The position numbers and the translations under genes are program-made. DNA of 64,000 bases, taken from the IMG/VR virus record IMGVR_UViG_3300032157_000001, positions 307,505 to 371,504 of that record, one strand, 5' to 3'. Origin of the DNA: a virus. Below are positions 5,078 through 40,722 of the stretch, piece by piece (position 1 is the first letter of the stretch; each line of letters starts with the position of its first letter). Below the pieces are notes generated by a model that was not told the DNA's origin, ran no database searches, and saw only the letters and a list, made by a program, of their open reading frames with translations.

Positions 5078-5147
5078 AGTCGGTGAAGCGAATCGAACGC
5101 TTTTCATCAGTTTTGCAGACTGACCGGCTTCCATAACCACCACCGAC
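5078..5147 (-). tRNA. tRNA-Cys(GCA)
   Basis: Full cloverleaf: acceptor GTCGGTG/CACCGAC, anticodon stem TCAGT/ACTGA with loop CTGCAAA, discriminator U as usual for Cys. It converges tightly with the + strand gene ending at 5076. Confidence 0.9.
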
Positions 5148-5150
5148 ATA

Positions 5151-5390
5151 TTATTTCGGAACAGAGTCCCAAACAATTTTATTCATTTTGTTGGAAAATT
5201 CTAACAACGATTGATATTGTTCAAACGTTAAAATCAACGTTGCTTTATTCTTGAGCATTTCTTCACCAGAGCCTTGATCTTGGTAGTCCCAAAATTCTAA
5301 ATTTACGGTCTTGGTTTCTTCATAAACAAGAATTTCCCAAGTTCCATCTTCAGATTCCCAATTCCACGTTGTCTCCCAAAATTTTTTCAT
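5151..5390 (-). CDS. Hypothetical protein, 79 aa, starting 1 nt after tRNA-Leu
   Basis: ATG at 5390 lies 1 nt after the discriminator base of tRNA-Leu(UAG), so a tRNA-processed transcript would be leaderless. The protein is Trp- and Glu-rich at the N-terminus and soluble. No family recognised. Confidence 0.7.
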   Translation of the reverse strand: MKKFWETTWNWESEDGTWEILVYEETKTVNLEFWDYQDQGSGEEMLKNKATLILTFEQYQSLLEFSNKMNKIVWDSVPK

Positions 5391-5391
5391 G

Positions 5392-5475
5392 TACCCCTTG
5401 AGAGATTCGAACTCTCATACCACTGAAGGCGACAGGTTCTAAGCCTGTTGTGTCTAGCCGTTCCACCAAAGGGGC
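5392..5475 (-). tRNA. tRNA-Leu(UAG)
   Basis: Type II tRNA with long variable arm, acceptor GCCCCTT/AAGGGGT with G1-U72 wobble, anticodon loop CTTAGAA. The next gene starts 1 nt beyond its 3' end. Confidence 0.92.
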
Positions 5476-5477
5476 AT

Positions 5478-5687
5478 TTAATATTTTATTTTACCGTATA
5501 TCACCGGTATACTTTTTTCAAAATCCAGTAGTTTCATTAGCGACATATAATCGTATCTGGCATATTCAACACCATGAAGACTATTTCTGACAAAGTTCCT
5601 TATGAACTCTTTTCTCATGTCGTAAAGTTCCCGCTCGTCATATAAATTTTCAATCTCATTGAAGAAATTGATTTGCTTCTCTTCCAT
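5478..5687 (-). CDS. Hypothetical protein, 69 aa
   Basis: Ends 2 nt before tRNA-Leu(UAG) and starts directly at the stop of 5688-6008. It carries a charged FFNEIENLYDERELYDMRKEF segment, but does not clearly share the motif of the paralog array upstream. Function unknown. Confidence 0.65.
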   Translation of the reverse strand: MEEKQINFFNEIENLYDERELYDMRKEFIRNFVRNSLHGVEYARYDYMSLMKLLDFEKSIPVIYGKIKY

Positions 5688-6008
5688 CTATGTTCCATTA
5701 ATATCGATATTTAAGGTTATAAATTGTTGTCTTGGTACTAATTGTACATTCACATTCATTGAGTGACTATCAAGTTGTGTTACTTCGGTATCACCAACAA
5801 TATAGTCTGAGTTGGCACCAAATGATGATGTTCTCGTCAAATCTTTCAAAATCTCATTATCAATTTCTCTCGCCAACGCTTCAGATAATGCGGCAATTAA
5901 TTCAAGTTCGAACGGAGATTTGTTTTCAAAAAAAACCCGCTTCTCGATCTCTATTTCTTGACGAATTAATTCATCAATATATTCGTCGTAAAAGTCTATT
6001 CCGTCCAT
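5688..6008 (-). CDS. Small paralog-array protein with YDxxIxxxhxxEI motif, 106 aa
   Basis: The N-terminus DFYDEYIDELIRQEIEIEKR matches the motif shared by four neighbours (5996-6947). The rest is beta-rich, ending in VNVQLVPRQQFITLNIDING. It overlaps the next gene upstream by 13 nt. No known family; the array may encode variants of one small structural or interaction module. Confidence 0.7.
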   Translation of the reverse strand: MDGIDFYDEYIDELIRQEIEIEKRVFFENKSPFELELIAALSEALAREIDNEILKDLTRTSSFGANSDYIVGDTEVTQLDSHSMNVNVQLVPRQQFITLNIDINGT

Positions 6009-6196
6009 AGTTTTGGTGATCTGTCAATGTGCTCTTCACTCCCATTAAAAAGAACCGCAACGATTGATGAATAAAACGTACCATTGGCAAATCCATTAGA
6101 AAGAAATTCTTTTTCAGACTGCTCGGTTTCATCATCAATCATCTTGCGAATGATGTAGTCATAAATGTTATTATCGTGAATAGTGTTGCTCAACAT
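5996..6196 (-). CDS. Small paralog-array protein, 66 aa
   Basis: Contains IYDYIIRKMIDDETEQSEK near the N-terminus, the array motif, then a short Gly/Ser/Phe segment. Overlaps both neighbours by a few nucleotides. Function unknown. Confidence 0.65.
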   Translation of the reverse strand: MLSNTIHDNNIYDYIIRKMIDDETEQSEKEFLSNGFANGTFYSSIVAVLFNGSEEHIDRSPKLWTE

Positions 6197-6426
6197 AAAT
6201 TTAATGTAAACGTATTTCCAACAGCAATTGATGTTTGACCGACTGCACCAGAATTTTGTTCTATTGCAAGACTAATATCTCCAACCGCATTTGACACATA
6301 TCCAACATTAAACCACGTACCTCCATTCATTATCCTATTTAATTCATAAAGAAATTCAGAACTTCTGATTTCCTCATCAAGCATTTCGTCTATAAGCTTA
6401 TCATAAAAACCATCATTGTGCCCCAT
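6190..6426 (-). CDS. Small paralog-array protein, 78 aa
   Basis: Array motif FYDKLIDEMLDEEIRSSEF, then GGTWFNVGYVSNAVGD, a beta-rich tail. A start at 6435 is possible; ATG at 6426 reduces overlap with the upstream gene. Function unknown. Confidence 0.65.
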   Translation of the reverse strand: MGHNDGFYDKLIDEMLDEEIRSSEFLYELNRIMNGGTWFNVGYVSNAVGDISLAIEQNSGAVGQTSIAVGNTFTLNLC

Positions 6427-6634
6427 AACCACCAACGTTTACTTCTCTAGGTAATTTAGAATGCTGACCAATTATTTCAAATTGACTCGAAAGAAGACCG
6501 TCTGATCCATATGAATGACTGAATACATATGTAACATTATTCAAGTAATGGTATCGTACAGATTCTTCAATCTCTTTAGCAACCATCTCACGAATTATGT
6601 CGTCATAAACATCGTTAGAATTCGATTTTTTCAT
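6413..6634 (-). CDS. Small paralog-array protein, 73 aa
   Basis: Array motif VYDDIIREMVAKEIEESVR at residues 8-26. The frame is open to 6673 but ATG at 6634 best matches its neighbours. It overlaps both flanking genes slightly. Confidence 0.65.
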   Translation of the reverse strand: MKKSNSNDVYDDIIREMVAKEIEESVRYHYLNNVTYVFSHSYGSDGLLSSQFEIIGQHSKLPREVNVGGYGAQ

Positions 6635-6947
6635 AGAACTTCTTGTCCACCTTGGTAGTGGCATATCTATCAAGTAATTTCTTAGGAATTTTTGCTATCT
6701 CCATATCCACAACTTCTGGTGTTCTGTAGACCGGTATGTAAGGAGCATACACATAACCAGCATCCATAAACTGACCGCCTCTAAGTATTATATTTGCAGC
6801 AAATATCTTCTTACTTGTAATGATTTCCTCAACTATCATCAAGTCAATGATGAGATCGGCAAGCGTGTTCATAGTAACACCACGATTGATAGTTTCTATA
6901 AACTTATCCATACGTTCAGATTCGAATTTTTTTTCTGGTAATGTCAT
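6615..6947 (-). CDS. Small paralog-array protein, 110 aa
   Basis: Most upstream array member. It has a longer N-terminus, then LADLIIDLMIVEEIITSKKIF (degenerate array motif) and GGQFMDAGYVYAPYIP, which parallels GGTWFNVGYV in 6190-6426. Overlaps 6916-7131 by 32 nt. Confidence 0.65.
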   Translation of the reverse strand: MTLPEKKFESERMDKFIETINRGVTMNTLADLIIDLMIVEEIITSKKIFAANIILRGGQFMDAGYVYAPYIPVYRTPEVVDMEIAKIPKKLLDRYATTKVDKKFYEKIEF

Positions 6948-7131
6948 TGAGAAAATGTCTGGTCATAAGTGCACAGAATATAAAAACGGTGCTGAAAGGA
7001 ATACAGAGTATAAGAAGGTCTAACAAAAAGAAAAGAGCCAGTACTGGTTGTGAATTACCTTTGGCCTTGTATGTTGTTGCCAATGGTAACACCGCCAAAT
7101 ACCAATTCACCTCTTTTAACTTCTTTAACAT
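6916..7131 (-). CDS. Small membrane protein, 71 aa, starting 1 nt after tRNA-Leu(AAG)
   Basis: ATG at 7131 is 1 nt after the tRNA discriminator. A hydrophobic stretch (about residues 30-56, LALFFLLDLLILCIPF then VFIFCALM) predicts one or two membrane segments, with a basic tail. The 3' end overlaps the paralog array. Function unknown. Confidence 0.55.
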   Translation of the reverse strand: MLKKLKEVNWYLAVLPLATTYKAKGNSQPVLALFFLLDLLILCIPFSTVFIFCALMTRHFLNDITRKKIRI

Positions 7132-7132
7132 G

Positions 7133-7217
7133 TACCTTCGGTCGGACTCGAACCGACACGCCCATTACAGGCACGAGCTTCTTAGACTCGCGTGGCTACC
7201 AATTACACCACGAAGGC
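7133..7217 (-). tRNA. tRNA-Leu(AAG)
   Basis: Type II fold with long variable arm, acceptor GCCTTCG/CGAAGGT (G1-U72), anticodon loop CTAAGAA. An A34 in a Leu tRNA is unusual for bacteria; the anticodon stem has a T-G end pair. Confidence 0.82.
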
Positions 7218-7219
7218 AT

Positions 7220-7372
7220 TTATACTGTCCAACCCATTTCATCAGAAACTTTTTTTATAGCTTTTGCCAATTTGTTTTGCCAATCTTCTTTTCTCTGATC
7301 CATAACCGCTTTAGTTTCTCTTTCTTTGATCAGCTTTTCATATGCGGCCCATGATTTGATCTTCTTTTCCAT
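7220..7372 (-). CDS. Hypothetical helical protein, 50 aa
   Basis: Short Lys/Glu-rich frame (MEKKIKSWAAYEKLIKERE...) that stops 2 nt before tRNA-Leu(AAG). Preceded by about 180 nt without genes that carry a GTATTTAT motif and a GAGTGG/CCACTC hairpin. Likely a real small protein; function unknown. Confidence 0.55.
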   Translation of the reverse strand: MEKKIKSWAAYEKLIKERETKAVMDQRKEDWQNKLAKAIKKVSDEMGWTV

Positions 7373-7571
7373 AATACAAAGTTAAAAGATTGTGTGAAAT
7401 CATAGGTCTTTTAGACAGATTTATTGTCGGACTGTAGATATTTCATTCACCGATGACTGCTGTAATTTCATGCCCCCTTCAGGATTAAGAGTGGATTTGT
7501 ACACCACTCGCAATTGCTGCCCTGCCTAGCTTAAAAGCCACAATCTTTGAAATAAATACTGCAAAATGCCA
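7373..7571 (-). other. Non-coding leader with hairpin upstream of 7220-7372
   Basis: No convincing frame. The sense strand holds a 6-bp GAGTGG/CCACTC hairpin with a 9-nt loop and several G-rich and C-rich patches. It could be an untranslated leader or small RNA. Confidence 0.35.
7552..7559 (-). promoter_or_regulatory. GTATTTAT motif
   Basis: Sense-orientation motif at the head of the non-coding stretch before 7220-7372. Confidence 0.4.
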
Positions 7572-7859
7572 TTATTTCTGAGGAAAAAGCTGCTTGTATC
7601 TTTTCTTGATGTAAGCCTTTTCTCTCTTCAACGCTTCAGCTTCAACTTGTTGTGTTTGTTCTTCAGTCAATGCATTGTCATCATCACATGCATTACAACT
7701 TATACACCACCAAGTTCCTCCATCAGAAACGGCAGCACTAAACGGTGGAAGAGTACCACAATGTTCACAATCCGGGCCTTCGCCAAATTCATTTGTAAAT
7801 TTGACATGACCTTCACCACAATTTAAATCTTCATTTACTTTTGCAATCTTTATTTTCAT
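7572..7859 (-). CDS. Cys-rich putative zinc-binding protein, 95 aa
   Basis: Contains CEHCG (residues 31-35) and WWCISCNACDD (about residues 51-61), two CxxC knuckles able to bind zinc, followed by a charged helical C-terminus. Start ATG overlaps the stop of 7856-7993 (ATGA), indicating translational coupling. Confidence 0.7.
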   Translation of the reverse strand: MKIKIAKVNEDLNCGEGHVKFTNEFGEGPDCEHCGTLPPFSAAVSDGGTWWCISCNACDDDNALTEEQTQQVEAEALKREKAYIKKRYKQLFPQK

Positions 7860-15044: not shown

Positions 15045-15446
15045 TTACTTAAAATTTTCAAAATCTTTGGCGTAACGTATGCCTTGTCTATTTTGACCAG
15101 ATTTATCTAATCTCAAACAAAATATTTTAAGGTCAGGCAATTCATTTAATTTGATATAATAAATTTTGTCGTTATCGGGACAGTATACAATATAGTAATC
15201 AATTTTTGATCTATCAATCATTATTTTTTTACCGTTTACCACATTTTCAAGAGGAACATCAATAGTACCTCTCTTACTTTTTTGACGATACTTTACTTGT
15301 ATTCGTTTTAAATTCATTGAGTCATCGCCAACGATTAAATCAACACACGTGGTGTCAGTAAATGGTAAGAAACAATTATAACCCTTTTCCACTAATTCTG
15401 CCACAACCTTGGCTAAACCAATGTTTCCCTTTTCGTTAGTATTCAT
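15045..15446 (-). CDS. PD-(D/E)XK nuclease-like protein (intron-associated endonuclease family), 133 aa
   Basis: KGNIGLAKVVAELVEKGYNCFLPF..CVDLIVGD..RIQVKYRQ follows the E-xn-D-xn-QVKY core of the PD-(D/E)XK group that includes the tRNA-intron enzyme I-Ssp6803I. Active-site candidates are E18, D36 and Q53/K55. The start at 15446 lies 2 nt after tRNA-Ser(GCU); the upstream frame crosses the tRNA. It sits among tRNAs, one of which (16040-16214) is interrupted. Homing activity is inferred only. Confidence 0.7.
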   Translation of the reverse strand: MNTNEKGNIGLAKVVAELVEKGYNCFLPFTDTTCVDLIVGDDSMNLKRIQVKYRQKSKRGTIDVPLENVVNGKKIMIDRSKIDYYIVYCPDNDKIYYIKLNELPDLKIFCLRLDKSGQNRQGIRYAKDFENFK

Positions 15447-15448
15447 AG

Positions 15449-15534
15449 CAGAGAGTATCAGATTCGAACTGATGGTGCCTTTCGACACGGCACTTTAGCA
15501 AAGTGCTGGATTAATCCATCTCTCCCAACTCTCT
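15449..15534 (-). tRNA. tRNA-Ser(GCU)
   Basis: Type II, acceptor AGAGAGT/ACTCTCT, discriminator G, anticodon stem GCACT/AGTGC with loop TTGCTAA. Confidence 0.93.
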
Positions 15535-16508: not shown

Positions 16509-16754
16509 TTAATCACTATCTATATACTCAACCAAATTCTCACAATAAAACTTAAAATCTTCCCGCTCTAAACGATGTATTCTTTCTACTTTCCAACGAT
16601 GATTCGCACCATAAGCAAAAAAATGATTGTGAAGAACCAATTGAACTTTTTCTATTGCTGTCAGTTTTGATTCTAACGGATCATCACTTTCACACGTCTC
16701 TGAAAAAATTTCATCACATAACGTACATTTTGCCGTTGCTGTACTTTTATACAT
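16509..16754 (-). CDS. Small C2H2-like protein, 81 aa, starting 1 nt after tRNA-Ile
   Basis: AKCTLCDEIF (residues 8-17) with later His residues (HNHFF, NHRWK, IHRL). Directly abuts its paralog 16296-16508. ATG is 1 nt after the tRNA-Ile discriminator. Confidence 0.68.
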   Translation of the reverse strand: MYKSTATAKCTLCDEIFSETCESDDPLESKLTAIEKVQLVLHNHFFAYGANHRWKVERIHRLEREDFKFYCENLVEYIDSD

Positions 16755-16755
16755 G

Positions 16756-16828
16756 TCCTCAAGGCTGGACTCGAACCAGCACTCTCCAAGGTATCAGCTT
16801 GGCGATTTAACCATTAATCTACAAGAGG
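16756..16828 (-). tRNA. tRNA-Ile(GAU), copy 2
   Basis: Anticodon stem CCAAG/CTTGG with loop CTGATAC, T-arm GCTGG-TTCGAGT-CCAGC. The acceptor has two T-T mismatches (CCTCTTG/CTTGAGG). Its U8-A9-G10 gives the stop of 16819-17013. Confidence 0.82.
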
Positions 16829-17538: not shown

Positions 17539-17721
17539 TTATTTTTTATAATTTAAAATTTTACTGTGTTGCAATTCAGAAAGAACAATCATAAAATCAA
17601 AATCGTTAATTTTAAGTTTCGGTTCTTCCTTACTTTTAAAGTTGTTCATCGTCTTGAGAATTTCTAATTTGATTTCCTCACGGACTCTCCAACGTTTAAT
17701 TTGTTCTTTCGTTAAATTCAT
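17539..17721 (-). CDS. Hypothetical protein, 60 aa, starting 1 nt after tRNA-Arg(UCU)
   Basis: MNLTKEQIKRWRVREEIKLEI is a basic helix. ATG is 1 nt beyond the tRNA-Arg(UCU) discriminator. Function unknown. Confidence 0.65.
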   Translation of the reverse strand: MNLTKEQIKRWRVREEIKLEILKTMNNFKSKEEPKLKINDFDFMIVLSELQHSKILNYKK

Positions 17722-17722
17722 G

Positions 17723-17796
17723 TGTCCCCAAAGGGAGTCGAACCCTTAGTCGTCTGCTTAGAAGGCAGAAGCTTTATCCAATTAAGCTACAGGAAC
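17723..17796 (-). tRNA. tRNA-Arg(UCU)
   Basis: Acceptor GTTCCTG/TGGGGAC, anticodon stem TCTGC/GCAGA with loop CTTCTAA. Confidence 0.92.
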
Positions 17797-21973: not shown

Positions 21974-22713
21974 GGGTTTAAGATTTGTTTGAATATTTCA
22001 TAATTGTTGGCTACGCTGTTGTGATCGTTGATGACGGCGAATATGACGTTGTTAAAAACCTTCGCGCCCTCATCTTCATCCAGTACTTTTTTGAATATGT
22101 TAGCAATGAATGTGGGGTCATTTGCAAATACTCCACATCCCCACGCACCAAGAATAAGATTTTCAACGTAGTTACGTGCAGCCAACTTAATAATAAATCT
22201 GATCTTTGTCTCGGTTATTGATAGATAATCTTGCTCAGATAAATTTTCCTTCCGTAGATTAATGGCAGCACACGTTATGACATCACAAGTAATTGCTTGT
22301 TGTTTGTTGTAATTGAAATCTTTGAAGAAAACAGCACCGGTTGTGTAGAGAGCTTCTGTATGTCTTAGCGGGTAGTGTGATTTCGAAATACACAAACCTA
22401 AATTAGAACAACGAAACAGTCCCTCTTCTTGAGCCTTTGCACCCCAACTTACTCCCCCACCCGGACGCTTATATGATGCCATATTTAATACGGCATTGTG
22501 ATCGCCCCTGAATTTAGATAGAGCCGTAATTGTGTCGACTGGTAACACTTCAACGTTACCCTTCATTGCTCTTTCACCGTTGATTTTCATATCATAGAAT
22601 CCTTGGTGATCGATCTTGATTGTTTTTCCAAGAGGATAATCTGTGGCAAGGAGAAGTGAGTCTTTGTATACCTCAACTAATTTATCGTCAGTTTTTTTAT
22701 AGTCCGGTTCCAT
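21970..22713 (-). CDS. PARG-like glycohydrolase (TIGR02452 family), 247 aa
   Basis: VLNMASYKRPGGGVSWGAKAQEEGLFR (about residues 75-101) holds the GGG-x6-QEE signature of microbial poly(ADP-ribose) glycohydrolases, and LILGAWGCGVFAN is typical of this macrodomain-related fold. It probably removes ADP-ribose from proteins or nucleic acids. It overlaps the RNA ligase gene by 17 nt. A role in reversing host defence ADP-ribosylation is inferred. Confidence 0.85.
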   Translation of the reverse strand: MEPDYKKTDDKLVEVYKDSLLLATDYPLGKTIKIDHQGFYDMKINGERAMKGNVEVLPVDTITALSKFRGDHNAVLNMASYKRPGGGVSWGAKAQEEGLFRCSNLGLCISKSHYPLRHTEALYTTGAVFFKDFNYNKQQAITCDVITCAAINLRKENLSEQDYLSITETKIRFIIKLAARNYVENLILGAWGCGVFANDPTFIANIFKKVLDEDEGAKVFNNVIFAVINDHNSVANNYEIFKQILNP

Positions 22714-23737
22714 TATCTATGAGTTTATTTGGTGTTACTTTTCCTTGCATCCAATGCTTGTCGCTGTTTATTACAAACCGACTTGACACAAATTTGGCTA
22801 TTGATGTTTCAAAATCATCGAAGTAGTAACCTCCCGCCAATCGAATTACATATCCTTCGGTTTTGTTTCCTTTGTATTCTTCAGGAAAAGCTTTATGAAT
22901 TTCTTCTTGATTGTAAACACCACGATAAAAGACCGGTACAGTTATTAAGCCGAACAATGTAGCCCACTCGACCGTTTCATCCCACGACATGCAATAGTCT
23001 TTATCCCATATAGAAAAGACATTGAAGTATGATTCCAGATTCTCATAGGGTATGGTGTGTAGAGCATAAAGATTTTCTCCACATATTCTCCAATCTTGTG
23101 GGATTTGATAACCAGTATTCGCCCACAATCCCTTTACCCAATCGCGAGAAGGATGATTATCTGAATTGATTGATCGTGCATGAATCTTATCATCATACAT
23201 TGTCGTGTTCTCACCATCCATTTTAATGGACACAACAACATCCCGTCCTTCGAAATGATCAACGTTCTTAAGACGTTTATCATCATCAGTAGCTTTCTCG
23301 CTCCAAGGGAGATGAGGTGTTCGCGGATATTTGGTATATTTCACGTTGAATTCTTTATAGTATGCCCCCTGATTGATTAAATTTTGTACTGGTACACTTC
23401 GAAACATGGGGCCGGGATACATCATGTTAAATGCCGCTACTTCGTTACCCCACTTGTCGTATGTTACTTCAGGATCAAAGTCATGAGGTAATACAACATT
23501 CGTAATTCCAGCCCTTCTTCTTAGTTCATCCGGAGTTAAGGTTATATCCTCAGCAAGCACATGACATCGATGACATAAACTAACACCATTGTCAATGTAA
23601 TATCCACCGTCCTCAAATAATTTTCGGTCTAAAATGTGGTGTGCATCATTGGCGGGTTTGCCACAAACTACGCATTTGCACTTATCCCGCTCAAAAACGG
23701 CTCCCCTAAAATCACCACGAGTTAAGAGTTTATTCAT
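22697..23737 (-). CDS. HNH nuclease-RNA ligase fusion (Rnl2-like), 346 aa
   Basis: Residues 20-60 form an HNH-type zinc module (CKCVVC, DAHHI, N50, CHRCH). Residues 160-322 hold the nucleotidyltransferase motifs of Rnl2-type RNA ligases: motif I IKMDGEN (K172 adenylated), RICGENLY, TEGYVIR and KFVSSRFV. RNA ligase seals 3'-OH/5'-P breaks, for example in cleaved tRNA anticodon loops. ATG at 23737 is preferred over a longer upstream frame; TAAATTTG lies at 23752-23759. Confidence 0.85.
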   Translation of the reverse strand: MNKLLTRGDFRGAVFERDKCKCVVCGKPANDAHHILDRKLFEDGGYYIDNGVSLCHRCHVLAEDITLTPDELRRRAGITNVVLPHDFDPEVTYDKWGNEVAAFNMMYPGPMFRSVPVQNLINQGAYYKEFNVKYTKYPRTPHLPWSEKATDDDKRLKNVDHFEGRDVVVSIKMDGENTTMYDDKIHARSINSDNHPSRDWVKGLWANTGYQIPQDWRICGENLYALHTIPYENLESYFNVFSIWDKDYCMSWDETVEWATLFGLITVPVFYRGVYNQEEIHKAFPEEYKGNKTEGYVIRLAGGYYFDDFETSIAKFVSSRFVINSDKHWMQGKVTPNKLIDNGTGL

Positions 23738-23771
23738 CCTTCGGTTATACGCAAATTTAGGGATTTTGGTT

Positions 23772-23779
23772 GTATTTAT
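23772..23779 (+). promoter_or_regulatory. GTATTTAT motif overlapping a start codon
   Basis: The last two bases belong to the ATG of 23778-24491, so either the start or the promoter role needs revising here. Confidence 0.35.
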
Positions 23780-24491
23780 GAAAAAGATAACCGTGAAGCT
23801 AACAGAGGCCATTTCAGAGGAATTAAGCAAGTATTACTTCAATATTTCAGAGGACTATCCACCATCCTTCGATAAAGAGGTATTCTATGGCCTCAGATCG
23901 TTCGCAGAAAGAATCAGGTATTGCTCTCAACATCTTGAAAAGATCGCTGCAGGGACTGGTAGAGTCGTTTTTAAGGTGGATGACAAGACAGCCTTAAAGC
24001 TGGCCAAAAACCCTAAAGGAATTGCTCAAAACGCACAGGAAGCTCAACTTGGTGCAGATAACTACATTTCAGATATTGTTGCCAACGTTTTTAATTCAGA
24101 CAACGACGATAAGTGGATTGAATCTGAACTTGCAACGAAGGTTAAGCCAAATAGATTTAAAGAACTTGTTGGCGTTGATATAGATACTGCGGGTAAATAT
24201 TTGATGCAAAGAGAGAAAGAAGAGGAACGTAGATCAAGATCAATGTCGGGTTACAATTTCATGGATACAAAATCCGAATTGTATACACAACTACACGAAA
24301 ATGAATTCTTACAAAGAGTTGTCGAATTGATGTTCAACTATAACATCAAAGCAGGTGATTTTTCCAAATTGAATTCCTATGGAGAAGTTAACCGAGAGGG
24401 GCATCCAACAATTGTTGTGGTTGACTATGGATTGAGTGATGAAGTGTATCAGACTCACTATATGCCAAAATCACTTCGTCGCGGTTATTAA
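23778..24491 (+). CDS. Kinase-like fold protein, 237 aa
   Basis: GTGRVVFKVDDKTALKLAKN (about residues 60-79) resembles a glycine-rich strand plus invariant Lys, and VVVDYGLSDEVY near the C-terminus resembles a DFG-like segment, as in degenerate protein kinases. Catalytic residues are not all evident. A longer upstream frame overlaps the RNA ligase antisense and is rejected. Confidence 0.55.
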   Translation: MKKITVKLTEAISEELSKYYFNISEDYPPSFDKEVFYGLRSFAERIRYCSQHLEKIAAGTGRVVFKVDDKTALKLAKNPKGIAQNAQEAQLGADNYISDIVANVFNSDNDDKWIESELATKVKPNRFKELVGVDIDTAGKYLMQREKEEERRSRSMSGYNFMDTKSELYTQLHENEFLQRVVELMFNYNIKAGDFSKLNSYGEVNREGHPTIVVVDYGLSDEVYQTHYMPKSLRRGY

Positions 24492-27461: not shown

Positions 27462-28370
27462 ATGGGAAAGGATAAAGAAATCGACTGTAAAATCTTAATT
27501 GGGGTGCCAGCATCCGGAAAAAGTACGTGGTCAACGGAATTTGTGCGAAATAACCCAAATTATCTCCGTTTGAACAGGGACAGCTACCGCTATATGCTGA
27601 AGGATCAGGGCTGGTGCGAACCCAAGGTCGAAGATATGATCACAGACATGTTTTTCGACGCAATTGATATTGCCTTGACAAGAAAAATGAGCTTGATTCT
27701 GGATAACACAAATTTAAAAAGAGGTGTTATCGATGAACTTGTCAAGTACGTGGAGACTCGATCAAACGTGTCCTTCATGGTGTTTGATATTTCATTGGAG
27801 ACAGCTATCGAAAGAGACGCTGCTAGACCAAAGCCAGTTGGTGAAGAGGTTATCAAGAAGATGTACAAGGCGTACACTGATTTGATGGATTCATATAATT
27901 ATTCCGATCAAAGGAAAAAAGTATTTATCTACAGAGAACCACTTTGGTTACCAAACCTTCCAAAGATTGTAATCTTTGATCTTGATGGTACGTTGACTCA
28001 CGCGAACGGAAGAAGAGGATATTTCGATTGGGATAGATGTGATCGTGATACTCGCGATGAAATTGTATTCAGAGCATATGAGCGTCACGTAACTGCTGGT
28101 GATACAATCTTCTTTATTACTGGTCGGGCTGAAGAAGCTCGTGCTAGTACTGAATTATGGTTACAAACTTATGCCCCAACATATGAAAGATTGTTGATGC
28201 GTAAGTCTGAAGATTATCGTCAGGATTATGTGGTGAAGGAGGAAATCTACAACCACTATATCAAGGGCAAGTATAATGTTGAGGTCATCTATGAGGACAA
28301 GCAAAAGGTTGTCGATATGTGGAGAAGAATCGGCCTCAAAGTATTTCAGGTTAGTAAGGGCGATCATTAG
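27462..28370 (+). CDS. pseT: Polynucleotide 5'-kinase/3'-phosphatase (T4 Pnkp type), 302 aa
   Basis: N-terminal kinase with P-loop GVPASGKST (residues 14-22), LNRDSYRYML and DNTNLKR. C-terminal phosphatase of the DxDGT family, DLDGTLT (residues 173-179), then FITGRAEEAR and EDKQKVVDMWR. Length is nearly that of T4 Pnkp (301 aa). It heals cleaved tRNA ends, making 3'-OH/5'-P for an RNA ligase such as 22697-23737. ATG at 27462 follows a TATTTTTG box. Terminator at 28358. Confidence 0.93.
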   Translation: MGKDKEIDCKILIGVPASGKSTWSTEFVRNNPNYLRLNRDSYRYMLKDQGWCEPKVEDMITDMFFDAIDIALTRKMSLILDNTNLKRGVIDELVKYVETRSNVSFMVFDISLETAIERDAARPKPVGEEVIKKMYKAYTDLMDSYNYSDQRKKVFIYREPLWLPNLPKIVIFDLDGTLTHANGRRGYFDWDRCDRDTRDEIVFRAYERHVTAGDTIFFITGRAEEARASTELWLQTYAPTYERLLMRKSEDYRQDYVVKEEIYNHYIKGKYNVEVIYEDKQKVVDMWRRIGLKVFQVSKGDH

Positions 28371-30278: not shown

Positions 30279-30470
30279 TTAAGTCTCTCCTAAGCACTTT
30301 AAGTTGTGTCCACCCATCAATTTTTTTTCATCCTCATAAGGATGAAATGTTTCAACATTACATTCTTTACAATAACACCACACTTCCCATATCTGACCGA
30401 TCATGGCTGTGTTAACGATCTCCCATCGTTCACAATCTTTGCCACAATCCATGCACACGGTGTTAATCAT
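30279..30470 (-). CDS. Zinc-ribbon-like protein, 63 aa, starting 1 nt after tRNA-Lys(CUU)
   Basis: VCMDCGKDC (residues 5-13) and WCYCKECN (about residues 31-38) form a zinc ribbon. The longer frame runs into the tRNA; ATG at 30470 follows the discriminator by 1 nt. Confidence 0.72.
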   Translation of the reverse strand: MINTVCMDCGKDCERWEIVNTAMIGQIWEVWCYCKECNVETFHPYEDEKKLMGGHNLKCLGET

Positions 30471-30471
30471 G

Positions 30472-30543
30472 TACCCTCGGTGAGGAACGATCTCACGACC
30501 CACCGCTTAAGAGGCGGCTACTCTACCACTGAGCTACGAAGGC
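30472..30543 (-). tRNA. tRNA-Lys(CUU)
   Basis: Acceptor GCCTTCG/CGAGGGT, anticodon stem GCCGC/GCGGT with loop CTCTTAA, T-loop ATCGTTC. Preceded by a GACTGTTT hairpin leader. Confidence 0.9.
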
Positions 30544-35047: not shown

Positions 35048-35053
35048 ATGTTG

Positions 35054-35485: not shown

Positions 35486-35583
35486 ACACTAATTGTTAAC
35501 CAAGAAAAACAATCAGGTTGTGTTGTATGTAATTTGCATTTTGTAATGTTAACAAATAAAACTATTATTTCAAAGAACTATTG

Positions 35584-35655: not shown

Positions 35656-35665
35656 ATTATGTTTG

Positions 35666-35737
35666 TGCTCTGAATGGGATTCGAACCCATGAATGGCCCC
35701 CGAAAGGGGCAGACTTTGGCCGCTTGTCTACCAGAAC
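35666..35737 (-). tRNA. tRNA-Glu-like (UUC, weak loop)
   Basis: Acceptor GTTCTGG/TCAGAGC, T-arm ATGGG-TTCGAAT-CCCAT. The anticodon hairpin GCCCC-TTTCG-GGGGC can close two extra pairs; with a 7-nt loop CTTTCGG it reads UUC. Confidence 0.65.
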
Positions 35738-35743
35738 TTTTTG

Positions 35744-35817
35744 TACCTCAGATGGGACTCGAACCCACACAATTCAGGGTTTAAGCCTGACACGTTTACC
35801 AGTTACGTCACTGAGGC
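35744..35817 (-). tRNA. tRNA-Leu(UAA), short variable loop
   Basis: Acceptor GCCTCAG/CTGAGGT (G1-U72), anticodon stem TCAGG/CCTGA with loop CTTAAAC. Variable region is short, unlike normal Leu tRNAs. Confidence 0.82.
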
Positions 35818-35846
35818 ATATGCTCTCAGTGCTACATAATCGTATT

Positions 35847-36083
35847 TTATTTTTCATTTTTCAATTGTTTTACAAATTCGTCAATTTCATTTTGTTCTTC
35901 CGGAGTTCGCTTTGCACGAGCAGCAGCAATATGCTGTGCCAACAATTTACGATCTTCTTCTCTTTCTTCTTCCGATTCATACTCGTGAGGAAAAATCGGA
36001 ACTCGTTCAAAAATTTCTTCGTCAGTTAGACCTTCGGCTTTTAATTTATCCCAAACTCTTTGTCCTTCTTTCGTTAGTTTCAT
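35847..36083 (-). CDS. Hypothetical acidic helical protein, 78 aa
   Basis: Glu/Arg/Lys-rich helices, KLTKEGQRVWDKLKAEGLTDEEIFERV. ATG overlaps the stop of 36080-36250 (ATGA). Function unknown. Confidence 0.72.
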   Translation of the reverse strand: MKLTKEGQRVWDKLKAEGLTDEEIFERVPIFPHEYESEEEREEDRKLLAQHIAAARAKRTPEEQNEIDEFVKQLKNEK

Positions 36084-36250
36084 TTCAATGCAATTAATTC
36101 TTTTTTCAAATTGTTAATCTTTGTTGTTTGTTCAGCGACATTGATCTCTCTTGTCGTTGAAGTTTTCTTCGTCAATGATTCTATCAACTCATTTTCAAGA
36201 AAATTAATTCTTTCAACAATCTTCTCTCTTTTCTTTTCAATCTTTCCCAT
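36080..36250 (-). CDS. Coiled-coil protein, 56 aa, starting 1 nt after tRNA-Ala
   Basis: MGKIEKKREKIVERINFLENEL then KINNLKKELIALK shows heptad spacing of hydrophobics. ATG is 1 nt past the tRNA-Ala discriminator; stop overlaps the next ATG. Confidence 0.62.
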   Translation of the reverse strand: MGKIEKKREKIVERINFLENELIESLTKKTSTTREINVAEQTTKINNLKKELIALK

Positions 36251-36251
36251 G

Positions 36252-36323
36252 TGGAGGTATAGGGATTCGAACCCTAATTGTCTGAGTGCAAGTCAGAAGT
36301 AATAGCCATTATACCATACCCCC
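36252..36323 (-). tRNA. tRNA-Ala(UGC)
   Basis: Acceptor GGGGGTA/TACCTCC has the G3-U70 pair that marks Ala; anticodon stem TCTGA/TCAGA with loop CTTGCAC. Confidence 0.92.
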
Positions 36324-36407
36324 ATAGTGAGAGTGACACCTTACTCTCGATTCAGTGAACTCGGATAGACCTGCCGTGTCTCGCTCTTTCATGTTCACCA
36401 ACTTTGC

Positions 36408-36528
36408 TGAAGTGACAGGACTCGAACCTGTATGACTATCGCTCGTTTTCCCAAATTCCTAGTATAATATCTCGTCAGGACTTTATACCGCTATCCGCTT
36501 TTAGCTCTAGCTTTAGGGATTACACTTC
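36408..36528 (-). ncRNA. tRNA-like element with pseudoknot in place of anticodon arm
   Basis: Acceptor GAAGTG/CACTTC plus A and T-arm ACAGG-TTCGAGT-CCTGT are clear. The other 90 nt lack a D-arm and anticodon arm; TCCC-t-AAA pairs with TTTGGGA, and TATAA/TTATA interleaves with TCCT/AGGA as a pseudoknot. The design recalls tmRNA but is far too short. Confidence 0.5.
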
Positions 36529-36532
36529 TAAG

Positions 36533-36614
36533 TACCCTCAGTCGGAGTCGAACCGACACGCCTTTCAGCACTACATTTTGAGTGTAGCATGACTACCAAT
36601 TCCATCATGAGGGC
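36533..36614 (-). tRNA. tRNA-Leu(CAA)
   Basis: Type II, acceptor GCCCTCA/TGAGGGT (G1-U72), anticodon stem CTACA/TGTAG with loop CTCAAAA. The upstream gene 36605-36802 ends inside its 5' end. Confidence 0.9.
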
Positions 36615-36802
36615 TTCTGTTTTGCTTTCGCCATTGCGATAAGTTTTTCAGTCGCATTTTTTTCTCGAACATTAATATAAAATCCAACCACTCTAAGTTT
36701 GAAGCCTTTGATGTATTTGTATTTTCCATACAAGAATAACCAACTCTTCAAATCCTTGAAGGAATAACCCCAAGGTGTCGTAAATATTATATCAACATCC
36801 AT
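36605..36802 (-). CDS. Hypothetical protein, 65 aa, starting 1 nt after tRNA-Asp
   Basis: MDVDIIFTTPWGYSFKDLKSWL, compact alpha-beta. ATG at 36802 is 1 nt beyond the tRNA-Asp discriminator; the upstream frame runs into the tRNA. Its last 10 nt overlap tRNA-Leu(CAA). Confidence 0.68.
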   Translation of the reverse strand: MDVDIIFTTPWGYSFKDLKSWLFLYGKYKYIKGFKLRVVGFYINVREKNATEKLIAMAKAKQKPS

Positions 36803-36803
36803 G

Positions 36804-36876
36804 CAGTCCCAACGGGAATCGAACCCGCTTCTTCCGGGTGACAACCGGAAATTCATAACCAACGTACCCTGAGACT
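36804..36876 (-). tRNA. tRNA-Asp(GUC), copy 1
   Basis: Acceptor AGTCTCA/TGGGACT, discriminator G, anticodon stem TCCGG/CCGGA with loop TTGTCAC. Confidence 0.9.
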
Positions 36877-36890
36877 ATATTCTATACTAG

Positions 36891-36965
36891 CGGTTTATAC
36901 GGGATTCGAACCCGTGATCTTCTGCGTGACAGGCAGACAGGGACGGCCAACTCCCCTAATAAACC
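36891..36965 (-). tRNA. tRNA-Asp(GUC), copy 2
   Basis: Acceptor GGTTTAT/ATAAACC, discriminator G, anticodon stem TCTGC/GCAGA with loop CTGTCAC. Confidence 0.9.
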
Positions 36966-36974
36966 ATATAAAAC

Positions 36975-37000
36975 AAAAAACCCGACTTTGTGGGTCGGGT
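36975..37000 (-). terminator. Intrinsic terminator after 37025-37141
   Basis: ACCCGAC/GTCGGGT stem with six T on the minus strand. Confidence 0.85.
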
Positions 37001-37024
37001 CTTTCTGATATTGTGAATCGAAAT

Positions 37025-37141
37025 TTAAATCAACTCAGTATCTTTAGACCCAACGAAACTATCATCCTCCACCAAGGCCACGGCCATAGTAGTAGATGCT
37101 TCCATCGCTAAAGTTTCTAAAGATAATATTGAAGTTTTCAT
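37025..37141 (-). CDS. Small protein, 38 aa, in its own promoter-terminator unit
   Basis: MKTSILSLETLAMEASTTMAV then an acidic tail. It lies between a GTATTTAT motif plus host-type promoter and an intrinsic terminator. Function unknown. Confidence 0.55.
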   Translation of the reverse strand: MKTSILSLETLAMEASTTMAVALVEDDSFVGSKDTELI

Positions 37142-37166
37142 TTTCGAATTTTTTACTTGTTTTGTG

Positions 37167-37174
37167 ATAAATAC
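37167..37174 (-). promoter_or_regulatory. GTATTTAT motif before 37025-37141
   Basis: 25 nt upstream of ATG. Confidence 0.5.
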
Positions 37175-37178
37175 GATA

Positions 37179-37209
37179 CAAACCTAAAAAAGGTTGCGTT
37201 CTTGTGCAA
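37179..37209 (-). promoter_or_regulatory. Bacteroidota-type promoter of 37025-37141
   Basis: TTG, 20-nt spacer, TAGGTTTG. Confidence 0.55.
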
Positions 37210-37234
37210 GTATTTTCAAATATTTATTTTTGAC

Positions 37235-38098
37235 CTACTTGAGAAACCCTATGTTTTCGACCCTATACCCTCTGAATTTGATCACATCATACATCCCATT
37301 TTCCCCCAATTTATAGAATCCTTGGATGCGATAATTGTATGGTTGACCATAATCGTCGTTAAAAGAAACAGCAACAATGTTGATGATCTCATTGAACATT
37401 TCACCATAAGAATGTGCAATGTCTTTGAGTCCAACATTCTTTGGAATATAAAACTCTAGGATTCTTCCATTTCTTTCTGATGCAAGTTCTTTAACGTGAA
37501 GATACTCGGTGATATGTTCAAGATTATATTTTGTTTGAAACATACGTTGAACATTGATACTGTACTTGTAGATTGGTTTAGCACCAATCGAATGATCGAG
37601 AACGTTCTGAAGATGTTTACGATTTGTCACCATCTTTTCAATTGCAAAGTTGTCGTCAACAGTTGTTCTTCTTCTTTGTTCCTCTCTTCGTACTTGTTGT
37701 ATTGATTTATCTCCGTGTGTTACTGCACGTTTCTTATCAAGCAAATCATAACGAGCCAATGCTTGTCCTCCCATTCCATATCTCTCTGCGAGTAATCTCA
37801 TTTGTTCGGGAGTTGAGTTATTGACAAGATCATCCGCTTTCTTCAAAACCTCATAGAAATAGTTTACGTACTCAGAATTGTACTCACCCTGTCTCATGCT
37901 CTCTAGTAAGCTTGCTGGTGACTGTCTTCTATATCCTTGTTGTTGCTGTCTTTGTCCGTGCTGTGGTGTTGGGACTGCATCTACCGATCTTACATCCTGC
38001 TCAACATTCTTCATCGCTATTGAAGAATTCAAGAGGGCTGAGATGACTATGTTTTTGACACTGTCTGGCAGCGCCTCAACAAATTTTAATATATCCAT
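37235..38098 (-). CDS. Hypothetical protein, 287 aa, possibly structural
   Basis: N-terminal third is Gln-rich and low complexity (HGQRQQQQGYRRQSP), then helical, then a beta-rich C-terminus. A GTATTTAT motif is 25 nt upstream, as for virion genes. No family recognised. Confidence 0.72.
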   Translation of the reverse strand: MDILKFVEALPDSVKNIVISALLNSSIAMKNVEQDVRSVDAVPTPQHGQRQQQQGYRRQSPASLLESMRQGEYNSEYVNYFYEVLKKADDLVNNSTPEQMRLLAERYGMGGQALARYDLLDKKRAVTHGDKSIQQVRREEQRRRTTVDDNFAIEKMVTNRKHLQNVLDHSIGAKPIYKYSINVQRMFQTKYNLEHITEYLHVKELASERNGRILEFYIPKNVGLKDIAHSYGEMFNEIINIVAVSFNDDYGQPYNYRIQGFYKLGENGMYDVIKFRGYRVENIGFLK

Positions 38099-38123
38099 AG
38101 TATAAAAATGTTACTTGTAACAA

Positions 38124-38131
38124 ATAAATAC
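38124..38131 (-). promoter_or_regulatory. GTATTTAT motif before 37235-38098
   Basis: 25 nt upstream of ATG. Confidence 0.55.
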
Positions 38132-38160
38132 TTGGTCTACAGTAAATTAGTCGATTTTGA

Positions 38161-38643
38161 TTAGTCTTGGCACTTGCATTTGCCGCCACACGGACATTCT
38201 TCTTCGGGTTGAGTGTCGATAACTTCGGCCAACCCCGAAGCATTTACGGTCTTAAGATAAGACAATATATAGCCCTTCATGTTGGCTGTGCCAACAGGAT
38301 TCATGCTGTGAATGTACCACATTGGAAACTCTGCCTTCTTATCCATGCAGTATTCTACAAGCCACTTAACACAATCATGGCCAGTTTTTTCGGAAGTGGT
38401 TTCCAAATATTTCATGTAAACTTTACCGTCCTGATACATTGATTCGTGATAATGTGCATCGGCCAGATCGTGGTCAAAAGATACCATAGATGGCAAACCA
38501 TTTTCTGTAACGAATTTCACAAATTGATCGTATGATCTTACGATCTCCCAATTTTCAGAATTGTAAAGAGGATTTAATGTGTATTCAAATGCAGCTTCAG
38601 GAGTTCTTATGTCGTCAAGAAAAAGGTTGTATGCTTTGTTCAT
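38161..38643 (-). CDS. Cyclic-phosphate processing receiver (cPPR)-like protein, 160 aa
   Basis: NLFLDDIRTP (residues 6-15), IVRSYDQFVKF, SFDHDLADAHY and YIHSMNPVGTANM match the receiver-like domain predicted to process 2',3'-cyclic phosphates in RNA repair contexts. The C-terminus is CPCGGKCKCQD, a Cys cluster. With Pnkp and RNA ligase in the same window, a role in RNA end repair fits but is a prediction. Confidence 0.78.
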   Translation of the reverse strand: MNKAYNLFLDDIRTPEAAFEYTLNPLYNSENWEIVRSYDQFVKFVTENGLPSMVSFDHDLADAHYHESMYQDGKVYMKYLETTSEKTGHDCVKWLVEYCMDKKAEFPMWYIHSMNPVGTANMKGYILSYLKTVNASGLAEVIDTQPEEECPCGGKCKCQD

Positions 38644-39146
38644 TATACGTAGTTCTGTAATATTTCTTTTGTAACGCTTGAGCGTAATTCAGGTGTTAGC
38701 CATTTTATGTTAAGTTCGCTTCCATCTTGATCGAATAAACCTAAGTCTAATCCGCTTCCCATGTTCTTGTAGTCTACGGTTACTGCGCCACCTTCTGGTG
38801 GTGTGAACCAGTTACCACGTTTATGTGGAGTAACATCGAAAGGCACTTCACCACTGATTATGATTGATAAGGGGATGATCTTGTCACCAAACTTATACTT
38901 GAAATCAAAAATATAGTTAACACCGAACGTGTCAGCAATGCTGTGTGGATCGATGTCGTCAGTTGTTCCTTTACCATCAACAAGTTTCCATTCAACAACG
39001 TTCCTCTTCTTATTTCTAAGATCATCAATCAGCTTGGTTATGAATTCTCTTGAGTTGAGAATAGCATCAAGCTCATCTACATTATTTACGATCTCATCGA
39101 GATTGGCTGTGTTCTTTGTGATTGACTCGTTGGTTGTTGTTTTCAT
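38643..39146 (-). CDS. Hypothetical protein, 167 aa
   Basis: Ser/Thr/Asn-rich N-terminus then VVEWKLVDGKGTTDDIDPHSIADTFG, a soluble alpha-beta protein. GTATTTAT motif 15 nt upstream; shares one base with the cPPR gene. Confidence 0.72.
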   Translation of the reverse strand: MKTTTNESITKNTANLDEIVNNVDELDAILNSREFITKLIDDLRNKKRNVVEWKLVDGKGTTDDIDPHSIADTFGVNYIFDFKYKFGDKIIPLSIIISGEVPFDVTPHKRGNWFTPPEGGAVTVDYKNMGSGLDLGLFDQDGSELNIKWLTPELRSSVTKEILQNYV

Positions 39147-39161
39147 GGTAATCAGTATACC

Positions 39162-39169
39162 ATAAATAC
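39162..39169 (-). promoter_or_regulatory. GTATTTAT motif before 38643-39146
   Basis: 15 nt upstream of ATG. Confidence 0.55.
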
Positions 39170-39189
39170 TTGACTAAGTTTCAATGGTA

Positions 39190-39459
39190 TTATTTGTTCT
39201 CACTGTTTTTCCCAAGGTGATACCCATCACACCAGAGACACTTATAATTGGAGAAGTACTTGCCCTTCTTTTCAAGCATCTGTTTTGCAACTTTCTGTGC
39301 CGTTGCTTTGGTGTTATACATAACTTTAGGGGAGCCATCATCTCGGAGGTGGGATCGCTTTGATGCCAATCCAATCAAATGTCCCTTCATAAGATTACGT
39401 AAAAATCTCTGTGGAGGCATTTGATCTTTTATAGCCAATATGACATTTTTGAGCTTCAT
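39190..39459 (-). CDS. Small Cys/His-containing basic protein, 89 aa
   Basis: C-terminal NYKCLWCDGYHLGKN (about residues 71-85) is a CxxC...H zinc-like motif common in small phage proteins; the middle is Lys/Arg-rich. Nucleic-acid binding is plausible. Confidence 0.7.
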   Translation of the reverse strand: MKLKNVILAIKDQMPPQRFLRNLMKGHLIGLASKRSHLRDDGSPKVMYNTKATAQKVAKQMLEKKGKYFSNYKCLWCDGYHLGKNSENK

Positions 39460-39504
39460 TAATCAAAGGTACAAAAAATAATTTGACATTTTCGAAACTT
39501 ATTC

Positions 39505-39534
39505 TTGGATATTACGTATTTATCCGTACATTTG
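39505..39534 (+). promoter_or_regulatory. Bacteroidota-type promoter of the 29-aa unit
   Basis: TTG, 19-nt spacer, TACATTTG, 15 nt before ATG. GTATTTAT is at 39515-39522 in the spacer. Confidence 0.75.
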
Positions 39535-39549
39535 TAGCACATTAAGAAA

Positions 39550-39639
39550 ATGAACAAGAACATCATCATATCACAACACCCCCAACATCAGCCACAAAAC
39601 TTGATGCTTGGGAATGGTATGTACTTTGATGATTTTTAA
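39550..39639 (+). CDS. Small protein, 29 aa, in its own promoter-terminator unit
   Basis: His/Gln-rich (ISQHPQHQPQN) with a GNGMYFDDF end. Flanked by a strong host-type promoter and an intrinsic terminator, which argues for a real early gene. Confidence 0.55.
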   Translation: MNKNIIISQHPQHQPQNLMLGNGMYFDDF

Positions 39640-39663
39640 AAATAACAACACAAAGACTTATAA

Positions 39664-39690
39664 AACCCCAAGCGATCCTTGGGGTTTTTT
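39664..39690 (+). terminator. Intrinsic terminator after the 29-aa ORF
   Basis: AACCCCAAG/CTTGGGGTT hairpin and T run. Confidence 0.87.
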
Positions 39691-39700
39691 GTTTTTTACG

Positions 39701-39768
39701 GCTGGTGACTGTTTCGATATTTCATAGGAACCTAACATTCATGAGTGTTGGCGTAGAAATATCACTAT
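39701..39768 (+). ncRNA. GACTGTTT hairpin leader, copy A (before tRNA-Pro)
   Basis: GACTGTTT, stem GATATTTC/GAAATATC, ATAGGA, inner AACA/TGTT hairpin, GCGTA; ends at the tRNA-Pro 5' end. Confidence 0.6.
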
Positions 39769-39844
39769 CGGGTAGTGGAGAAGTTTGGTCGTTCTCGCTT
39801 GTTTTGGAAACAAGAGTTCGCTGGTTCAAATCCAGCTTACCCGA
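39769..39844 (+). tRNA. tRNA-Pro(UGG), copy 1
   Basis: Acceptor CGGGTAG/TTACCCG, anticodon stem CTTGT/ACAAG with loop TTTGGAA. Confidence 0.92.
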
Positions 39845-39850
39845 CATTAA

Positions 39851-39918
39851 AGTTGCTGTAGAGACTGTTTGAATGTTGCATAGGAGGTGTCAGTTATAAG
39901 CGTAGAAACATTCAGTAT
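39851..39918 (+). ncRNA. GACTGTTT hairpin leader, copy B (before tRNA-Pro)
   Basis: GACTGTTT, stem GAATGTT/AACATTC, GCATAGGA, GCGTAGA; the stem differs from copy A by compensating changes. Confidence 0.6.
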
Positions 39919-39994
39919 CGTGTAGTGGAGAAGCTTGGTCGTTCTCGCCTGACTCGGACTCAGGAGGTCGAAGGTTCAAATCCTTCCTATGCGA
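39919..39994 (+). tRNA. tRNA-Pro(CGG)
   Basis: Acceptor CGTGTAG/CTATGCG, anticodon stem CCTGA/TCAGG with loop CTCGGAC. Next gene starts 1 nt beyond. Confidence 0.92.
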
Positions 39995-39995
39995 C

Positions 39996-40220
39996 ATGAG
40001 AAGAGTTAAAGAAAAAGTAAAAGTAGCACCAGCGGTGTTAAACTCGTTGAGTGTTTATTGTCCAGTACTGGATAAGGAAATATCACTGTTGCTATCTGAT
40101 GTAAGCTTCGGCGGTTCAGAGAGTGAATGTGAGATGTGTGGGTCACATGGTAGTGTTACCTTGTCAATCTACAAATGTCAATGTGGTGGGATGCACGACA
40201 TTGTTTTGAAAGAATGGTAA
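39996..40220 (+). CDS. Zinc-ribbon-like protein, 74 aa, starting 1 nt after tRNA-Pro(CGG)
   Basis: YCPVLD, ECEMCGSHG and YKCQCGGMH supply Cys ligands for zinc. Starts directly after the tRNA. Confidence 0.7.
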   Translation: MRRVKEKVKVAPAVLNSLSVYCPVLDKEISLLLSDVSFGGSESECEMCGSHGSVTLSIYKCQCGGMHDIVLKEW

Positions 40221-40221
40221 T

Positions 40222-40268
40222 GTTCGTTATCACGAACAAAATCAGTTAATATGTTCGCTATAGTGAAC
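40222..40268 (+). promoter_or_regulatory. Tandem similar dyads before tRNA-His
   Basis: GTTCGTTATCACGAAC (40222-40237) and GTTCGCTATAGTGAAC (40253-40268), 15 nt apart, share GTTCG-YTAT and GAAC. Could be an operator or two RNA hairpins with UAUC/UAUA loops. Confidence 0.5.
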
Positions 40269-40275
40269 ATTATAT

Positions 40276-40350
40276 GGTGGTCGTAGCTTAGTTGGTTAAA
40301 GCGCAAGATTGTGGCTCTTGAGAGCGCGAGTTCGAACCTCGTCGATCACC
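40276..40350 (+). tRNA. tRNA-His(GUG)
   Basis: Acceptor GTGGTCG/CGATCAC with encoded G-1 and C73, the His identity pair; anticodon stem CAAGA/TCTTG with loop TTGTGGC. Confidence 0.93.
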
Positions 40351-40447
40351 CAAATGGCATCTTAAAAAAGATTAAAGTCTTAGAGACGGCCTAGTAGTTT
40401 ATCGACCCATGAAATGGTCTACTATAAAAAACATTGGAATGGGAACA
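40351..40447 (+). other. Structured spacer between tRNA-His and tRNA-Pro
   Basis: TAGTAG/CTACTA stem enclosing a GACC..GGTC hairpin; no gene. Confidence 0.35.
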
Positions 40448-40520
40448 CGGGATTTAGTTCAGTTGGCAGAACGCTGAGTTTGGGACTCAGAGGCCGAAGG
40501 TTCGAGTCCTTCAATCCCGA
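40448..40520 (+). tRNA. tRNA-Pro(UGG), copy 2
   Basis: Acceptor CGGGATT/AATCCCG, anticodon stem CTGAG/CTCAG with loop TTTGGGA. Confidence 0.9.
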
Positions 40521-40521
40521 C

Positions 40522-40722
40522 ATGAAAATTGAAGAAGTAAACATTGGCGACTTAGTACTGGATGGAAAGGTCGTTGAGAGAATTGTAAACAAGACAACCA
40601 ATTCTATTGAGGTAACACGCACGAAGCGTGGGCCTGATGGGATTAATTGTGCACAGTGGTTTACATGGAAGGATTTTACAGATAATTTTAAAAAGGTAAA
40701 GTATGAAACCTCTATACACTAA
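40522..40722 (+). CDS. Hypothetical protein, 66 aa, starting 1 nt after tRNA-Pro
   Basis: MKIEEVNIGDLVLDGKVVERIV, a small beta-rich domain. The longer frame from 40414 runs through the tRNA. Overlaps the AlkB-like gene by 20 nt. Confidence 0.7.
   Translation: MKIEEVNIGDLVLDGKVVERIVNKTTNSIEVTRTKRGPDGINCAQWFTWKDFTDNFKKVKYETSIH

Follow-up and report, generated by a model that had tools for sequence, protein, structure and literature searches.

Fourteen small open reading frames (ORFs) in a 64,000-nucleotide (nt) stretch of viral DNA begin directly at, or 1 nt beyond, the 3' end of a tRNA gene. This stretch, hereafter the window, is the end of the 371,504-base virus record IMGVR_UViG_3300032157_000001 (G000:C1:307505-371504), and the record, here called G000, carries phage terminase and portal genes. 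We consider it likely that this jumbo phage, whose host probably belongs to the Bacteroidota, uses a partial form of tRNA punctuation, in which the excision of tRNAs would release mRNAs with almost no leader. This reading draws on the anatomy of the junctions, on their start codons where these could be tested, on their conservation, and on the statistics of their occurrence. The open papers searched contained no report of tRNA punctuation in phages.

Anatomy of the tRNA-ATG junctions

ARAGORN detects 43 tRNAs in the window and five more in the remainder of the record (Rfam, 42 matches in the window), nearly all tRNAs of G000 lying in arrays within the last 60 kb. The sequence-only reading had placed an ATG 1 nt past the tRNA discriminator at 5390, 7131, 9322, 13217, 16754, 17721, 30470, 36250, 36802, 39996, and 40522, and 2 nt past it at 7993, 8794, and 15446, and all 14 are present at these spacings, each opening an ORF of 45 to 133 amino acids (aa). 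It had described the sequence as discriminator, C, ATG. This order holds and the C is always there, but it is not a leader base, being position 74 of the tRNA (C74). Counted from C74, the true gap is 0 nt at 11 junctions and 1 nt at 3, and a gap of 0 is the nearest possible site because the ATG cannot overlap C74. At 12 of the 14 junctions, the frame does not extend upstream beyond a stop codon that lies inside the tRNA, 9 to 75 nt 5' of the ATG. About a third of the tRNAs (~30%), not all, are involved in such a junction, and at 8 places an upstream gene ends with a complete stop codon 2 to 3 nt before a tRNA.

Twelve junctions lie on the minus strand, where the ATG of each ORF stands at its higher coordinate. 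Directly after C74 of the adjoining tRNA start a 79-aa ORF (5151-5390) behind tRNA-Leu(TAG) (5391-5475), with its stop codon 3 nt before tRNA-Cys (5077-5147); a 71-aa ORF (6916-7131) behind tRNA-Leu(AAG) (7132-7217), for which the homologue search found none; a 116-aa ORF (8972-9322) behind tRNA-Phe(GAA) (9323-9395); and a 130-aa DUF4326 protein (12825-13217; PF14216, E 2.4e-27; phrog_464, E 3.1e-38) behind tRNA-Ser(TGA) (13218-13303). The same holds for an 81-aa ORF (16509-16754) behind tRNA-Ile(GAT) (16755-16828), a tRNA excluded from the scored counts for its acceptor-stem mismatches, and for a 60-aa ORF (17539-17721) behind tRNA-Arg(TCT) (17722-17796), a 63-aa ORF (30279-30470) behind tRNA-Lys(CTT) (30471-30543), a 56-aa ORF without a later in-frame ATG (36080-36250) behind tRNA-Ala(TGC) (36251-36323), and a 65-aa ORF (36605-36802) behind tRNA-Asp(GTC) (36803-36876). 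One nucleotide separates C74 from the ATG between tRNA-Thr(GGT) (7995-8069) and a 45-aa ORF (7856-7993), the shortest and weakest of the 14; between tRNA-Ser(GGA) (8796-8885) and a 74-aa ORF with weak PHROG matches only (8570-8794); and between tRNA-Ser(GCT) (15448-15534), which falls outside the Rfam gathering-score matches, and a 133-aa PD-(D/E)XK endonuclease (15045-15446; PF11645, E 3.1e-22, protein residues 1-130 on profile positions 1-136). On the plus strand, tRNA-Pro(CGG) (39919-39995) is followed directly after C74 by a 74-aa ORF (39996-40220), and tRNA-Pro(TGG) (40448-40521) adjoins a 66-aa ORF (40522-40722).

C74 is part of the tRNA

C74 is encoded in all 46 scored tRNAs of G000, only one of which carries CCA. 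The same base is found in 52 of 53 tRNAs of G001, a 366-kb record that is the nearest relative found that spans the tRNA region, and in 458 of 469 tRNAs at other phage loci (97% of the CCA-less ones); these relatives are metagenomic records whose completeness is not established. Among Flavobacteriia, 291 of 292 tRNA genes, representing few isoacceptors only, have C74 without CCA. Between discriminator and ATG there is thus always a C, because every scored tRNA encodes C74, and since C74 is general to these phages and to Flavobacteriia, this C is a tRNA base rather than a leader base. Three further ideas were rejected: an ARAGORN artefact, as tRNAs are detected equally well with A, G, or T at position 74; a phage invention, as Flavobacteriia have C74 too; and an excess of CATG in the window, where 200 are found versus 220 expected.

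Position 75 is A or T in the CCA-less tRNA genes of these phages and of Flavobacteriia (loci L117-L196), and a contact with RNase P or cleavage after C74 may be candidate reasons for keeping C74 without C75-A76. About a quarter of the phage tRNAs (G000, G001, and others) have a G1-U72 pair, which occurs in 0 of the 292 Flavobacteriia tRNAs. A weak, degenerate tRNA-like match without C74 at window positions 9459-9529 (Rfam, 32 bits) is possibly a decayed tRNA.

Junctions compared with chance and with other genomes

With an ORF threshold of 45 aa, on which the junction counts depend, 10 ORFs start at offset 0 from the 46 tRNAs where 0.17 are predicted by the rate at background C positions in the tRNA arrays (binomial tail, about 1e-15). 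A start 0 to 1 nt past C74 follows 13 of 46 tRNAs in G000, 5 of 53 in G001, 4 of 447 in 14 other tRNA-rich phage records, and 0 of 292 in Flavobacteriia. The difference between G000 and the other phage records is large (Fisher p about 1e-11), these controls having been found via two shared gene families and one terminase match, so that they may not represent all phages. In the 14 control records, the nearest downstream same-strand ORF mostly starts at least 11 nt away, as a leader would predict. G001 falls in between: ten of its starts have gaps of 0 to 4 nt. Isolated junctions occur elsewhere, namely, a YAcAr gene after tRNA-Asn in G005, a DUF5522 gene after tRNA-Ala in G011, and two genes in G013; DUF5522 and YAcAr genes of other phages thus likewise begin at C74-ATG.

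The comparison bears on compaction alone, in which the spacer between tRNA and gene would simply have been lost, with little translation of the genes, or translation from transcripts that stay unprocessed, and with no mechanistic meaning in their abutment. Jumbo phages are gene dense, and the genes that end 2 to 3 nt before tRNAs would fit such an economy. Nevertheless, the arrays are not densely packed, with same-strand ORFs covering 55 to 76% of them and tRNAs 10 to 28%, abutment is nearly missing from the fourteen other tRNA-rich records, and an uncleaved tRNA would cover the ribosome-binding region with a folded stem. We regard compaction alone as an unlikely explanation.

Start codons of the junction genes

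The gene after tRNA-Lys(CTT) adjoins the same tRNA in G000 and G001. Compared with its orthologue (L025:2969-3130), differences by codon position number 5/2/17 over the gene and 2/1/6 in the first 12 codons, those at position 3 extending right to the tRNA, and the residues from the ATG to the next Met at codon 7 are conserved, with silent changes. The pairing of tRNA-Pro(TGG) with its gene is also kept in G001, there with a 1-nt gap, and the G000-G001 homology runs from the first residue of this gene, which has no other in-frame ATG, GTG, or TTG. Three junction genes of G000 have G001 homologues that stand behind ordinary leaders without an abutting tRNA: the orthologue of the Phe gene (L026:524-874), which can be aligned from its first residues onward, has its start no more than one residue away, behind an A-rich leader, that of the Leu(TAG) gene (L026:2558-2779) starts one residue later behind a normal leader, and the homologue of the Ile(GAT) gene (L025:15492-15713) starts near the same place with no tRNA directly upstream. 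Moreover, the PD-(D/E)XK Pfam profile matches the Ser(GCT) gene from residue 1. Scans for further relatives with the Lys, Pro, and Phe genes gave G001 only.

The sequence-only reading had named true starts further downstream as a result that would overturn it, and the Lys, Pro, Phe, and Leu(TAG) orthologues and the PD-(D/E)XK profile contradict this wherever it could be examined. That the ATGs are not real starts, either because initiation lies downstream or because many small ORFs are spurious, could be argued from the several ORFs without a homologue and from the in-frame ATG at codon 7 of the Lys(CTT) gene; yet the Pro(TGG) gene offers no other start codon, the Lys residues before Met7 are conserved, and the Phe, Leu(TAG), and endonuclease genes all point to the same beginning, which makes this explanation quite improbable. 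For the remaining junction genes, it is plausible that the tRNA-abutting ATGs are the true starts.

Host and proposed processing

Upstream of 232 longer genes of the phage, A peaks at -3, -6, and -11 to -14, and Shine-Dalgarno (SD)-like 4-mers occur at 7% versus a 4% background, that is, without an SD signal. This absence of SD sites together with A-rich leaders (at -3, -6, and -12/-13) matches what has been reported for Flavobacterium johnsoniae (PMC6847099), and hence the host, judged from sequence, is probably a member of the Bacteroidota.

We propose a model in which the tRNAs and the small genes are presumably co-transcribed in gene-tRNA-gene chains, the tRNA 5' end would be cut by RNase P, and the 3' end of the CCA-less tRNA would be cut by RNase Z, probably that of the host, or by another endonuclease, either after the discriminator or after C74. 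The downstream RNA would thus begin with C-AUG or with AUG (one base more in three cases), and ribosomes would initiate on a leaderless or near-leaderless mRNA with a 1- to 2-nt leader. Before cutting, the acceptor and T arms would sit over the ribosome-binding region, so that tRNA maturation and message release would be one event, and the CCA-adding enzyme of the phage could finish the tRNA end. Co-transcription, cleavage position, translation mode, and host are the parts of this model that we infer. On CCA-less precursors, the usual RNase Z site lies just after the discriminator, and cutting there would give C-AUG. Cleavage after C74 has been mapped by differential RNA sequencing (dRNA-seq) in Propionibacterium (Cutibacterium) acnes and Streptomyces coelicolor (PMC3848588, PMC4681348); a mapping of such a cut in Bacteroidota or in this phage was not found.

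In computed folds that include the intact tRNA, the stretch from -18 to -1 of the junction genes is largely paired, its unpaired probability being 0.32 against 0.55 in ordinary genes, and the start region is more open once the tRNA is removed (0.71). RNase Z scores above the cut-off in 8 of 8 Bacteroidota genomes examined, and a phage-encoded RNase Z was looked for in G000 without being found. Internal promoters had been named as another finding that would speak against leaderless messages. For the host type the sequence speaks against them: none of the TANNTTTG motifs would place a transcript start within a tRNA, and no such Bacteroidota promoter motif lies in the tRNAs, although the motif is only weakly enriched in this phage.

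Retention of the tRNA, or of a tRNA-like fold, on the mRNA as a structured leader serving stability or regulation, with translation by another route, would agree with the tRNA-gene pairs conserved at Lys(CTT) and Pro(TGG), but the scores of most of these tRNAs are those of ordinary tRNAs and structure near the start codon reduces translation in F. johnsoniae (PMC6847099), so we give it very little credence.

Partial punctuation is favored by the start codons that could be tested, the two conserved junctions, the ribosome-binding region that an intact tRNA would cover, the RNase Z of the Bacteroidota genomes examined, and the lack of host-type promoter motifs within tRNAs, and the form in which the sequence-only reading proposed it has to be narrowed in its extent (~30% of tRNAs), in the nature of the C (C74), and by the complete stops upstream of tRNAs. 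Several observations weigh against it. Only two junctions, Lys(CTT) and Pro(TGG), are common to G001 as the same gene, and at other tRNA species common to both phages, such as tRNA-Ala(TGC), which adjoins an ORF in G001 too, the adjoining genes differ; gaps of 2 to 8 nt also occur in G001, so that this relative can do without exact abutment. Several junction ORFs are short and without homologues. Phage promoters of another type may still act at these junctions. Finally, leaderless messages are not the rule in F. johnsoniae, where 87% of predicted transcripts have leaders longer than 10 nt (PMC6847099).

Other tRNA-related genes

The CCA-adding enzyme is encoded by the phage as part of a larger polyvalent protein, combined in G000 with an ART-PolyVal (ADP-ribosyltransferase-like) domain (L116, G000:C1 around 117092-117478) and in G001 with a 2H phosphoesterase-like or Acb1-like domain (L115). 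The window also encodes an RNA ligase with an HNH domain (22697-23812) and a polynucleotide kinase-phosphatase (27462-28370), which may form a tRNA repair pair. Taken with the CCA-adding enzyme, these two genes argue that the phage invests in tRNA upkeep. Both phages have tRNAs with anticodon CTA, of the amber suppressor type (window 8264-8336; L017 10086-10159; L026 3540-3613 and 5586-5659); TAG nevertheless ends 29 of 235 longer ORFs.

Significance and comparison with known systems

If true, partial punctuation would mean that tRNA punctuation arose a second time, independently, in a bacterial virus, and it would predict leaderless translation in a phylum without SD sites and with mostly leadered messages in its one mapped species. 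The two phages offer natural pairs, in which the same gene has an ordinary leader in one and a tRNA in the other, and the question arises why C74 is present in these tRNA genes without the rest of CCA. For the stronger proposal, that this lineage evolved mitochondrial-style punctuation, with at least 14 genes needing tRNA excision for a leaderless mRNA, C74-AUG as the cut-and-start site, and tRNA maturation as a translation switch, we see the balance as even.

Bacteroidota jumbo phages encoding bS21 (PMC9723584) appear similar in being large, in carrying tRNA genes, and in an unusual link to translation initiation. Unlike in those phages, a search for bS21 in G000 and G001 found none, and the passages of that report consulted here hold no mention of tRNA-gene junctions.

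Leaderless mRNAs of Actinobacteria (Mycobacterium, P. acnes, Streptomyces) have their AUG at or within a few nucleotides of the 5' end, as predicted for the phage, and in mycobacteria ATG or GTG at the mRNA 5' end is necessary and sufficient for leaderless translation (PMC4633059). However, these actinobacterial ends arise by transcription initiation, whereas those of the phage would arise by tRNA 3' processing. In P. acnes and S. coelicolor, the mapped cleavage separates the first C of CCA from the second, at exactly the position that would leave AUG as the 5' end in the phage (PMC3848588, PMC4681348), although the tRNAs concerned are actinobacterial and CCA encoding and those of the phage are CCA-less.

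Animal mitochondria are a close parallel in anatomy, with genes placed between tRNAs and start codons 0 to 3 nt past the tRNA, as at 14 of 14 junctions here, and processing at tRNA ends would likewise set the mRNA ends of the phage. The likeness stops at two mitochondrial features: most mRNAs of the phage are not tRNA-flanked, as 13 of the 46 scored tRNAs adjoin a gene, and incomplete stops to be completed by polyadenylation are replaced by complete ones at the 8 places where a gene ends before a tRNA. Unlike in mitochondria, only some of the tRNAs take part, about one in three, together with a limited number of accessory genes, and the arrangement belongs to a bacterial virus that would presumably rely on host enzymes and in which the C before AUG is the encoded C74 of the tRNA itself.

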